Of a stretch of DNA of 64,000 nucleotides, positions 15,695-25,666 are shown in pieces. Position 1 is the first letter of the stretch. Each line of letters starts with the position of its first letter. The stretch is from Planctomycetota bacterium (GTDB lineage: Bacteria > Planctomycetota > UBA1135 > UBA2386): assembly GCA_020849665.1 (NCBI GenBank), contig JADLFX010000085.1, positions 1-64,000 on the forward strand, in the 5' to 3' direction. Made by a program: the position numbers and the translations under genes. The notes below the pieces were generated by a model. That model saw nothing but the letters and a program-made list of their open reading frames with translations. It was not told the DNA's origin and ran no database searches.

Positions 15695-16849
15695 TCAGCG
15701 GCGCAGGAGCACCACCTCGGAGCAGAACCCCGGGCCCATGGCCAGGAGCAGGCCCAGGCTGCCCTCGGGCCAGCGCCCCGGCGTCGCCAGCGTGCGCCCC
15801 AGCACCATCAGGACCGAGGCGCTGCTGAGGTTGCCCTGTTCCGCCAGCATCTGCCACGAGAGTGCGAAGTCCTGGTCGGTGAGCGCGAGGCCGTCCTGCA
15901 TGCCCTGCAGGACCTTCGGCCCGCCCGGATGCGCGATCCACGCGGCGATGTCGGCACGGCCGAGACCCTGGCTGGCCAGGAACGCATCGACGTCCACCGG
16001 CAGGCGCGTGCGCGCCACCTCCGGCACCGCCGGCGAGAGCACGATGCGGAACCCCCGCTCGGAGATGTCCCAGCCCATCACGTCCTCGGTGTCGGGATAG
16101 AACGTCGAGCGGGTCGCCACCAGCTCCGGCCACGCCGCGCCCGCGACCGCGGCACGCGGGTGCTGCGGCCCGACCAGCACCACGGCCGCGGCGCCGTCGC
16201 CGAAGAGGCCGGTGGAGATCAACGCCGCGACCGAGAGGTCCTCGCGCTGGAAGTTCAGGGAGCAGAGTTCGACGCAGAGCAGGACCGCCGCCTGGTCCGG
16301 GTACGCCCGGAGGTAGTCGGCGACGCGCGCGAGGCCCGCGGCGCCCGCCACGCAGCCCAGGCCGAAGAGCGGCATCCGCTTCACGTCCGGGCGCAGGCCG
16401 AGCTCGTTGATCAGCATCGCGTCGAGGGACGGCGAGGCGATGCCCGTGACCGTCGCGGCGAAGATCGCGCTGAGATCGCCGGCCTCCAGCCCTGCCGCGG
16501 CGAGGGCCGCCCGCACCGCCTCGCCGCCGAGGCGCCGCGCGACGCGGATCCACGCGTCGTTGGCCTTGCCGAAGGTGTCGAGGTGCTCGTACTCCTGGAG
16601 CGGCAGGGCGAGATGCCGGGCGCTCACGCGGGTGTGCTCGTGCAGGCTGGCCAGGCGCCGCAGCACCGCGGGCCGGTCGTGCCACATCCGCGCGAGATGG
16701 GCCACGATCTCCTCCTGGCGGTAGCGGTGCTCGGGCAGCGCCTGCCCCACGCCGGCCAGGAGCGCCGCGGCCGTGGCCGAGCCACGTTCGTGGGGCAGGG
16801 CCGGGGACGGGCGCGGCGGCGCGGGAAGGATGCTGGGACGCGGGGTCAT
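15695..16849 (-). CDS. type III polyketide synthase (alkylpyrone/alkylresorcinol type)
   Basis: Chalcone-synthase-fold homodimeric ketosynthase, 384 residues. The catalytic triad is Cys166 (FGLGCVAGA), His307 (WIAHPGGPKVL) and Asn340 (EQGNLSSASVL). Bacterial relatives extend fatty acyl-CoA with malonyl units to give alkylpyrones or alkylresorcinols. Its ATG overlaps the stop of the upstream methyltransferase gene (ATGA), so the two are translationally coupled. This is the last gene of a four-gene run (YceI, lipoprotein, methyltransferase, synthase). PKS type III plus ICMT-like methyltransferase is the known BpsA-BpsB arrangement of Bacillus, and Srs of Streptomyces adds a flavoprotein. The product here is inferred, not known. 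Confidence 0.93.
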   Translation of the reverse strand: MTPRPSILPAPPRPSPALPHERGSATAAALLAGVGQALPEHRYRQEEIVAHLARMWHDRPAVLRRLASLHEHTRVSARHLALPLQEYEHLDTFGKANDAWIRVARRLGGEAVRAALAAAGLEAGDLSAIFAATVTGIASPSLDAMLINELGLRPDVKRMPLFGLGCVAGAAGLARVADYLRAYPDQAAVLLCVELCSLNFQREDLSVAALISTGLFGDGAAAVVLVGPQHPRAAVAGAAWPELVATRSTFYPDTEDVMGWDISERGFRIVLSPAVPEVARTRLPVDVDAFLASQGLGRADIAAWIAHPGGPKVLQGMQDGLALTDQDFALSWQMLAEQGNLSSASVLMVLGRTLATPGRWPEGSLGLLLAMGPGFCSEVVLLRR

Positions 16850-17616
16850 CTCCACCTCGGGATCAAGTAGGGCACGCGCGCACGGTAGGCAGCGAAGCCC
16901 GCGCCGTGCATGCGCGCGTAGCGGCGCTCCTTGAGCCGCGGACCGAACCCACAATACGCGCTCCACAGCACCGCCAGGAGCAGGCGGTCCAGGGTCATGG
17001 TCGGCCCGGTCCACAGGACCAGCGCGAAGCCGAGATAGATCGGTTGCCGGCACAGGGCGAAGAGGCCCGAGGTGCGCAGCGGCCCGAACTCGGGCCGCCG
17101 GCCGCGGAACACCGCCCACCAGCCGAGGAGCCCGGTCTGCAGCGCGAGGCCGCCGTCCAGGATCGCCTTGTTCAGGAAGAGCCACGCGGCGACGTGCGTG
17201 GCGAAGAGCACCGTCCGACCCGCGCCCGCGGGCGCGTCGTAGAGCACGACGCCCGAAGGCGACCAGAGGCCGAACGCCAGCAGGAGCTGGAGCGAGGCCA
17301 CGATGGCGAACAGCGTGCTCGAGAGGTCGCGGGCGAGGTCGCCGGGCGCGAGGCGCAGCAGCCACGCGCGGCCGCGGCCGTTCAGGAGCGCGCTGTGCAG
17401 GAGCGGGAACTGGAGCACCAGCAGGGCATCGGCGGCGAATGCCCCGGCGCCGTGCAGGGTCCCCAGGCCGCTCTGCAGACCCGTGTGCAGGCCGACCGCC
17501 ATGCACGCGATCGCCGCGACGAAGAGCGTGTGGCAGGAGAGGCCGTACGCGAGCGCGACGGCGCTGCGGCGGAAGGCGCCGGGCAGGGCCGCGGCCCCCG
17601 GGTGCGACGGGCCCAT
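16846..17616 (-). CDS. ICMT-like membrane methyltransferase
   Basis: Integral-membrane methyltransferase of 256 residues with five or six hydrophobic segments. The C-terminal signature of the isoprenylcysteine carboxyl methyltransferase/phospholipid methyltransferase superfamily is present: LFALCRQPIYLGFALVLW and KERRYARMHGAGFAAY. It overlaps the polyketide synthase gene by four bases (ATGA) and starts two bases after the lipoprotein stop. In BpsB-like systems such an enzyme O-methylates the type III polyketide product, which is the best guess here. No Rossmann SAM motif is expected in this membrane family. Confidence 0.85.
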   Translation of the reverse strand: MGPSHPGAAALPGAFRRSAVALAYGLSCHTLFVAAIACMAVGLHTGLQSGLGTLHGAGAFAADALLVLQFPLLHSALLNGRGRAWLLRLAPGDLARDLSSTLFAIVASLQLLLAFGLWSPSGVVLYDAPAGAGRTVLFATHVAAWLFLNKAILDGGLALQTGLLGWWAVFRGRRPEFGPLRTSGLFALCRQPIYLGFALVLWTGPTMTLDRLLLAVLWSAYCGFGPRLKERRYARMHGAGFAAYRARVPYLIPRWR

Positions 17617-24317: not shown

Positions 24318-25666
24318 GCCCGCGGCGCCTGCTCCTGGTCGAGGACGACGCGACGCTGCGCCGCGTGCTGGCCCGCGAGCTCGCGGCCTTCGGGTTCGCC
24401 GTCGCCGCGTACCCCAGCGCCGAGGAGGCGCTCGCAGCGCTGGGCGATGCGCAGCCGGAGGTGGCCCTCGTGGACCTGCGCCTGCCCGGAATGGACGGGC
24501 TCACGCTGCTGCAGCGGCTGCGCGCCACCGACCCCGACCTGCAGGTGGTCGTGCTCACCGGCCACGGCGCCGTGCCCGACGCGGTCCAGGCCATGCGCCT
24601 TGGCGCGCACGACTTCGTCACCAAGCCGACCAGCCTGGAAGTGATCGAGCAGACGCTGCGCCGCGCCCTGGAGACGCGCGCCCTCGTGCTCGACAACCGG
24701 CGCTGGCGGCGCCTGGCGGCGAGCGAGGAGGATCCGGCGGGGATCCTCGGGGAGAGTCCGGCGATCCAGGAGCTGCGCGGGCTGGTCGAGCGCGTCGCCG
24801 GCAGCGACACCAACGTCCTGATCCAGGGCGAGAACGGCACCGGCAAGGAGCTGGTGGCGCGCAGCATCCACCTGCGCAGCGCGCGGCGCGACGGACCGTT
24901 CGTGGTGCTGAATTGCGGCGCGATCCCGGAGGCCCTGCTGGAGAGCGAACTCTTCGGGCACGAGCGCGGCGCGTTCACCGGCGCGGACAAGCGGCGCCTC
25001 GGCCTCTTCGAGGCCAGCGACGGCGGCACGCTCTTCCTGGACGAGATCGGCGAGCTGCCGGTGGCCGTGCAGCCGGCGCTGCTGCGCGCGCTGCAGTTCC
25101 GCGAGATCCGGCCGGTGGGATCCGACCGGCTGCGCACCGTGGACGTGCGGCTGGTCGCGGCGACCAACCGCGACCTGCACGCCGAGATCGCCGCCGGCCG
25201 GTTCCGCGAGGACCTCTACTACCGGATCGCCGCGCTCACCCTCGAGGTGCCGCCGCTGCGCGCCCGGCGCGGCGACGTGCCGATCCTGGCCGCGGCGATC
25301 CTGGCGCGGGTCTGCCTGGCATCGGGACGGAGGATCGAGCTCGCGCCGGACGCGGTGGCGGCGCTGCAGCAGCACGAGTGGCCCGGCAACGTCCGCGAAC
25401 TGGAAAACGCCCTCACCCGCCTGTGCGTGTTCGCCCCTGGCGACACGATCCACGCCGCCGAGGTCGAGCGCCTGGTGGTGCAGCGCGCGCGCCGCACCGC
25501 GCCGGGCAGCCTGCCGACCCTCGACCTGGAGGAGCTGGAGCGGCTGGCCGTGCTGGAATCGCTGCGGCGTCATGGCGGCGACAAGAAGGCCGCCGCGGCC
25601 GAGTTGGGCGTGTCGCTGAAGACCCTCTACAACAAGCTGGCACGCTACGGCGCGCCGCCCTCCTGA
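24314..25666 (+). CDS. NtrC-family sigma54-dependent response regulator
   Basis: Protein of 450 residues. The receiver domain spans 1-120 with phospho-acceptor Asp54 (LVDLRLPGMDG). The AAA+ domain spans about 145-380 with Walker A GENGTGKE (172-179), the sigma54-contact loop GAFTGA (219-224), Walker B GGTLFLDEIG, and R-finger region ATNRDL. A C-terminal Fis-type HTH follows (KKAAAAELGVSLKTLYNKL). It starts with TTG inside the stop of the kinase gene. I could not find a convincing -24/-12 promoter at the adjacent lipid operons, so its targets remain open. Confidence 0.93.
   Translation: MSPRRLLLVEDDATLRRVLARELAAFGFAVAAYPSAEEALAALGDAQPEVALVDLRLPGMDGLTLLQRLRATDPDLQVVVLTGHGAVPDAVQAMRLGAHDFVTKPTSLEVIEQTLRRALETRALVLDNRRWRRLAASEEDPAGILGESPAIQELRGLVERVAGSDTNVLIQGENGTGKELVARSIHLRSARRDGPFVVLNCGAIPEALLESELFGHERGAFTGADKRRLGLFEASDGGTLFLDEIGELPVAVQPALLRALQFREIRPVGSDRLRTVDVRLVAATNRDLHAEIAAGRFREDLYYRIAALTLEVPPLRARRGDVPILAAAILARVCLASGRRIELAPDAVAALQQHEWPGNVRELENALTRLCVFAPGDTIHAAEVERLVVQRARRTAPGSLPTLDLEELERLAVLESLRRHGGDKKAAAAELGVSLKTLYNKLARYGAPPS

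Follow-up and report, generated by a model that had tools for sequence, protein, structure and literature searches.

Results

We analyzed a 64,000-nucleotide stretch of DNA from a Planctomycetota bacterium (contig JADLFX010000085.1; hereafter the window, meaning the whole stretch) and found that eight of its genes form a real conserved unit that is inherited together. These genes encode a type III polyketide synthase (PKS), an integral-membrane methyltransferase, a lipoprotein and a YceI protein in one arm, and an MMPL-family transporter, a flavoprotein of the geranylgeranyl reductase (GGR) family, a sensor kinase and an NtrC-family activator in a divergent second arm (Table 1). We propose, at a probability of about one half, that they make up one regulated system in which an alkylresorcinol would be made, methylated, oxidized toward a hydroquinone or quinone, and moved through the Gram-negative envelope.

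Conservation of the two arms

We compared the locus with regions of relatives that represent several families of the window's order or lie elsewhere in the phylum, and compiled by hand, from profile searches of these regions, a tally of the 26 loci in which both arms are readable. All eight window genes are present in 19 of them. YceI, lipoprotein, kinase and NtrC genes occur in every locus, the PKS in 25, the flavoprotein in 24, the MMPL gene in 23 and the methyltransferase in 22; a further gene, for a UbiG-type methyltransferase, is found in 19. An earlier interpretation of this DNA (the sequence-only reading) had named joint conservation of the arms as a check on its proposal of a single system, and the arms are indeed kept together. 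The closest PKS outside the window's genome (63% identical) comes from a Planctomycetota metagenome-assembled genome of a second family (L031/L111), whose locus carries the eight genes in a divergent order identical to that of the window. Because this order recurs in a second family and in many further relatives, the arrangement is not due to chance. Within the window's own family, the NtrC gene often lies beyond the PKS gene rather than behind the kinase gene.

The lipoprotein family was found in 50 of 154 genomes of the class. Where the match is strong (47 genomes of the class), a PKS gene lies within 5 kb in 39 genomes and on another contig in three, with none in the remaining five. Beyond the class, the lipoprotein and YceI genes are found with another, divergent PKS lineage, in which Phe or Tyr replaces a conserved Trp discussed below (L204, L205, L207); in L204 the MMPL, flavoprotein, UbiG and methyltransferase genes are likewise with the set, all on one strand. 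Such re-use with a different synthase and a different gene order argues for a functional set.

Variants of the locus were seen among the relatives. L200 (genome G098) retains MMPL, YceI, lipoprotein, methyltransferase, kinase and NtrC genes, with PKS and flavoprotein absent. Three loci (L118:16998-17687, L119:17054-17677 and L132:16833-17510) encode a secreted-looking protein of ~207-229 amino acids between flavoprotein and kinase, which is absent from the window. The gene at this place, seen also in L112, has no Pfam match and reaches only 30% against YceI in hhalign; its product is possibly a remote YceI protein.

Our gene calls agree with the gene positions and the two divergent arms given by the sequence-only reading, including the 264-base region between them (19241-19504) and the 28 nt shared by the MMPL and flavoprotein genes. 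The minus-strand arm is tightly packed, as that reading had it, with junctions slightly outside its range of 0-3 bases: YceI and lipoprotein genes overlap by 4 nt, as do methyltransferase and PKS genes, and 2 nt separate lipoprotein from methyltransferase. Pfam and NCBIfam searches assigned the PKS, YceI, MMPL, GGR-family flavoprotein, HAMP/HisKA kinase and NtrC-type activator to the families expected, leaving the methyltransferase, previously called ICMT-like, without any Pfam match.

Table 1. Genes and candidate control elements of the two-arm locus (window positions)
Feature	Position	Strand	Remarks
Type III PKS, Pks11/alkylresorcinol type	15695..16849	-	By homology and residues Cys166, His307, Asn340, Trp260
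Integral-membrane methyltransferase, MddA/ICMT-like	16846..17616	-	Motif CRQPIYLGF...KERR; not orthologous to srs/pkq-type ICMT
Lipoprotein	17619..18062	-	Lipobox LAGC; predicted beta fold, weakly lipocalin-like
YceI protein	18059..19240	-	N-terminal transmembrane (TM) anchor, coiled coil, Pro-rich linker, C-terminal YceI domain
Shared divergent control region	19241..19504	.	264 bp
Candidate sigma-54 promoter, YceI-to-PKS arm	19253..19268	-	TGGTCCGGCGTTTGCT; predicted transcript start 2 nt before YceI start codon
Candidate activator binding site (upstream activating sequence)	19357..19388	.	Tandem dyads TGTAAGAGTTACC-6 nt-TGCAAGTTCTTCC; midway between promoters
Candidate sigma-54 promoter, MMPL arm	19477..19492	+	CGGCACGCCGCGTGCT; predicted transcript start 2 nt before MMPL start codon
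MMPL/RND (HAE3-like) membrane transporter	19505..21532	+	Distant kin of HpnN and BstA
GGR-family FAD oxidoreductase (flavoprotein)	21505..22755	+	Full-length homology to srs/pkq-type flavoprotein
Membrane sensor histidine kinase	22776..24317	+	~155 residues between two TM segments; HAMP, HisKA, HATPase
NtrC-family sigma-54 activator	24314..25666	+	TTG start; receiver, AAA+ with GAFTGA at residue 219, Fis helix-turn-helix

The synthase and its partner enzymes

The solved structure closest to the window PKS is Mycobacterium tuberculosis Pks11 (E 7e-100). C166, H307, N340 and W260 align with Pks11, so that both the catalytic triad and the resorcinol-directing Trp are intact; this Trp is reported to be essential for resorcinol formation (PMC5916927; PMC9927152). 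In our phylogeny, the PKSs of the system form their own clade (support 90/97) beside acidobacterial, myxococcal and actinobacterial enzymes, Pks11 among them. The grouping with Pks11 and Streptomyces PKS has support of 97/91 in a set that includes CylI on a long branch, with THNS outside. A Streptomyces plasmid enzyme sharing 55% identity with the window PKS is encoded in a PKS-ICMT-flavoprotein operon. Placement in a lipid-type clade was the second check put forward by the sequence-only reading, and the synthase groups with Pks11 and srs/pkq-type enzymes. Homology and active-site residues mark it as a putative lipid-type (alkylresorcinol) type III PKS. The related enzyme of the planctomycete 'Saltatorellus ferox' Poly30 makes C15/C17 alkylresorcinols and methylated forms of them (Milke et al. 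2024, PMC10896814).

The window flavoprotein aligns over nearly its full length with srs/pkq-type flavoproteins from the Streptomyces plasmid and from Acidobacteriota (hhalign 99.9%, E 4e-35). Because it is homologous end to end with the flavoprotein of Streptomyces srs/pkq-type operons, the core of the locus resembles polyketide-quinone operons, which yield alkyl benzoquinones (PMC9927152; PMC5916927). Matches in the PDB raised the possibility of a halogenase, which we ruled out since the WxWxIP motif is absent and the GGR subfamily scores higher.

Most relatives have a class I methyltransferase gene between the membrane methyltransferase and lipoprotein genes. Its product scores above the NCBIfam cut-off for UbiG in all three cases tested (127, 130 and 108 bits; cut-off 103). 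Six genomes tested contain futalosine-type menaquinone genes, with no menD above cut-off. Given these futalosine-type genes, the UbiG-type enzyme more likely serves the polyketide pathway than ubiquinone synthesis. In the window's genome, a 50% identical UbiG-type copy stands alone on another contig.

These enzymes also bear on a rather doubtful alternative, in which a methylated alkylresorcinol, not a quinone, reaches the outer membrane and has a structural or barrier role there, akin to hopanoids, sterols and Azotobacter cyst lipids, and the flavoprotein reduces the chain or modifies it slightly. The GGR family is known chiefly for its chain reductases; the window flavoprotein scores below the GGR subfamily cut-off and matches no hydroxylase equivalog; planctomycete enzymes have so far been seen to give alkylresorcinols only; and the carrier set described below suggests an outer-membrane destination, as for HpnN and BstABC. 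Arguing the other way, UbiG-type enzymes methylate hydroxylated quinone precursors and are encoded in the operon of most relatives, and the same flavoprotein family is linked to quinone formation in srs/pkq operons.

Putative divergent sigma-54 control

For each strand of the control region, the best-scoring -24/-12 match puts the predicted start of transcription 2 nt ahead of the YceI or the MMPL gene. A sigma-54 consensus search of the whole window allowing two mismatches was uninformative (25 matches, 21.6 expected); the two sites stand out only because of their position and conservation. Paired sigma-54 promoters recur in nearly all relatives with the divergent arm, usually with a joint shuffle p<0.01 (except in L127, with p 0.023, and in L210, which yielded no pair), and the start codon is usually within a few nucleotides of the predicted transcript start. 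By comparison, 6.5% of random 760-nt windows from these loci contain both sites, and 1.25% contain both in start-proximal positions. The predicted starts imply leaderless or near-leaderless transcripts.

The two promoters flank a tandem 13-bp dyad, TGYAAsnsTTRCA, whose copies are usually 19-21 bp apart, the spacing being constrained in scoring just to a range of 17-28 bp. The dyad reaches p<0.05 in 17 of 21 loci, values that are optimistic because the consensus was derived from the same loci. The window's dyad pair is the best-scoring pair in the whole 64 kb. The locus has the hallmarks of sigma-54 two-component control: an NtrC-type activator bearing GAFTGA, a linked kinase and candidate -24/-12 promoters. 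Both arms are apparently co-regulated from one control region. This divergent promoter pair with a tandem dyad midway, recurring across relatives, is new here; the sequence-only reading had no view of the promoters, the dyads or the UbiG-type enzyme encoded in relatives.

Candidate carriers: YceI, lipoprotein and MMPL

The window's YceI protein (PF04264, E 1.8e-17) is encoded by a single-copy gene in its genome, located at this locus; 5 of 14 other genomes tested are likewise single-copy. Its predicted structure comprises an N-terminal helix (TM by hydropathy), a long coiled coil and a barrel that matches BcnA (TMt 0.88) and TT1927b. We also examined 80 PKS loci in public genomes, mostly Acidobacteriota and nearly all from other phyla. 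YceI lies within 6.5 kb of the PKS in 27 of them, and on the same strand within 2.6 kb in 22, against an expectation of less than about one, estimated from 1-5 YceI copies per genome and uncorrected for the relatedness of the genomes. Linkage between type III PKS and YceI thus reaches wider than the window's phylum, across several phyla. In Acidobacteriota (L074:8384-8953, L079:12293-12868 and others) we saw compact operons, either PKS-flavoprotein-YceI or YceI-PKS-ICMT-ACP-acyl ligase-flavoprotein-MMPL.

The lipoprotein has no Pfam or NCBIfam family match and shows no homology to YceI in our search. Structure prediction gives a confident beta fold (pLDDT >95 in the core). The MMPL transporter belongs to the HAE3/HpnN/BstA type, scoring 28 bits with the BstA model (cut-off 1400) and 44 with that of HpnN (cut-off 1100); by these scores it is of the same family without being the same member or a BstA orthologue.

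Both control and carriers bear on an unlikely reading in which the product is a respiratory polyketide quinone, as in Mycobacterium smegmatis and Streptomyces, with an inner-membrane role, and the tasks of YceI, lipoprotein and MMPL are limited to its handling, storage or recycling. The logic of PKS, methyltransferase and flavoprotein is the same, and tight sigma-54 two-component control would fit a conditional electron carrier. An inner-membrane carrier, on the other hand, needs neither a lipoprotein nor an RND pump, and the two actinobacterial loci compared have neither; moreover, the genomes carry futalosine menaquinone genes.

A model for synthesis and trafficking

From the observed gene content, family membership, and conservation of genes, promoters and dyads, we infer the product chemistry, the direction of transport and the signal as follows. 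Judging by its homology and residues, the PKS would extend a C16-C18 acyl-CoA with three malonyl or methylmalonyl units to give an alkylresorcinol. The membrane methyltransferase, the GGR-family flavoprotein and the UbiG-type O-methyltransferase (in cis in most relatives) would then decorate and hydroxylate the ring, and homology to srs/pkq operons suggests a methoxylated quinone-type lipid as the outcome. The MMPL protein may extract this lipid from the inner membrane, after which the anchored YceI barrel may ferry it across the periplasm to the lipoprotein, its possible receiver at the outer membrane. Finally, an envelope signal relayed by the membrane kinase would lead the NtrC-type activator to bind the tandem dyads and fire both sigma-54 promoters; both arms are proposed to rise together because one activator fires both. 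In its most specific form, which we put forward only tentatively, the product would be an alkyl benzoquinone methoxylated by UbiG, the polyketide equivalent of ubiquinone, with a dedicated MMPL-YceI-lipoprotein conduit to the outer envelope under sigma-54 control.

Several observations, in addition to the optimistic dyad p-values, weigh against this model. The MMPL gene is missing from the otherwise largely complete loci L113, L114 and L191. The window operon has no UbiG-type gene in cis, and a search found no convincing sigma-54 site for the relocated copy. Foldseek matches of the lipoprotein to lipocalins, E. coli Blc included, are weak (best E 3e-3, TM ~0.4-0.5). The membrane methyltransferase has an ICMT-superfamily-like C-terminal motif; its sole curated match is MddA, a methanethiol S-methyltransferase (87.5 bits, cut-off 270), and it is not alignable with srs/pkq-type ICMTs (hhalign probability 1.6%), placing it in a different subfamily. 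Lastly, no additional product appeared when the 'S. ferox' PKS was co-expressed with both methyltransferases of its operon, an experiment that did not include the divergent-arm flavoprotein (PMC10896814). With the eight-gene set conserved and a lipid-type PKS, polyketide-lipid synthesis and envelope carriage, as the sequence-only reading proposed, remains the best interpretation, in which export and product stay putative.

Neighboring genes

Directly 3' of the NtrC gene, the window encodes a second ICMT/PEMT-type methyltransferase (25745-26383, plus strand), which is not at this place in relatives. We considered it, with a flanking desaturase and SnoaL protein, as a cluster member and rejected all three, which are unmatched near the relatives' clusters apart from a weak ICMT2 cross-match in L115. 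Elsewhere, a minus-strand frame (1087-3999) encodes a FUR-family regulator domain at residues 11-104 and, from residue 316 on, a haem peroxidase domain; it looks like a Fur-peroxidase fusion, unless two genes are being read as one. A third region (57923-61145, minus strand) holds three tandem paralogues of 325-328 amino acids with CxxCH-type motifs near the N-terminus and without Pfam match.

Comparison with known systems

The sequence-only reading held that the combination had not been described as one system. This is only partly true, because Milke et al. describe one arm in 'S. ferox': a five-gene operon for a YceI-type ('lipid/isoprenoid-binding') protein, a lipoprotein, two methyltransferases and the PKS (PMC10896814). 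The window lacks one of these methyltransferases in cis; the complete 7.72-Mb genome G135 carries the same five-gene arm as 'S. ferox'. The paper makes no mention of the divergent MMPL/flavoprotein/kinase/NtrC arm or of shared sigma-54 control (PMC10896814). Nor did we find the two-arm system, its control or the cross-phylum YceI linkage in the literature searched, whose coverage leaves out most subscription journals. One arm was thus known from one species, and the two-arm combination has been described only in part.

For planctomycete alkylresorcinol clusters, knowledge of end product and function stops at the first enzyme. The divergent-arm flavoprotein is a likely candidate for the missing enzyme of the 'S. 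ferox' pathway, where the published attempt used methyltransferases only. YceI proteins, few of which have a known physiological cargo, are tied to one lipid class by gene linkage that recurs in several phyla, and the map of candidate promoters and binding sites offers a concrete basis for working out when the lipid is made.

The hidABC cluster (hierridins) and three-gene planctomycete clusters resemble the window in their methyltransferase, oxidoreductase and alkylresorcinol-forming PKS, whereas the gene set and PKS lineage differ, and carriers or regulators are not reported there. Milke et al. suggest a hierridin link for other planctomycete clusters (PMC10896814), which could make the product a secreted chemical mediator with MMPL as its exporter. 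We consider this improbable: the 'S. ferox' enzyme falls outside the HidC group (PMC10896814), the presence of two carrier proteins and a membrane sensor kinase fits an envelope lipid better, and conservation across many genera of a family would be unusual for a secreted mediator.

Like the window, pkqABC (M. smegmatis, Streptomyces MNU77) and srsABC (S. griseus) join a type III PKS of the wider clade to a methyltransferase and a homologous FAD oxidoreductase. They differ in methyltransferase subfamily and in forming a single operon, and the two actinobacterial loci also have no YceI or two-component genes. In trafficking, the closest parallels are BstABC sterol and HpnN hopanoid transport, where an MMPL-family inner-membrane protein is likewise encoded beside lipid-synthesis genes; BstABC also includes periplasmic and outer-membrane-associated lipid carriers (PMC10942540). 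The window differs from both in lipid class and in its carrier folds, a YceI barrel and a possible lipocalin.

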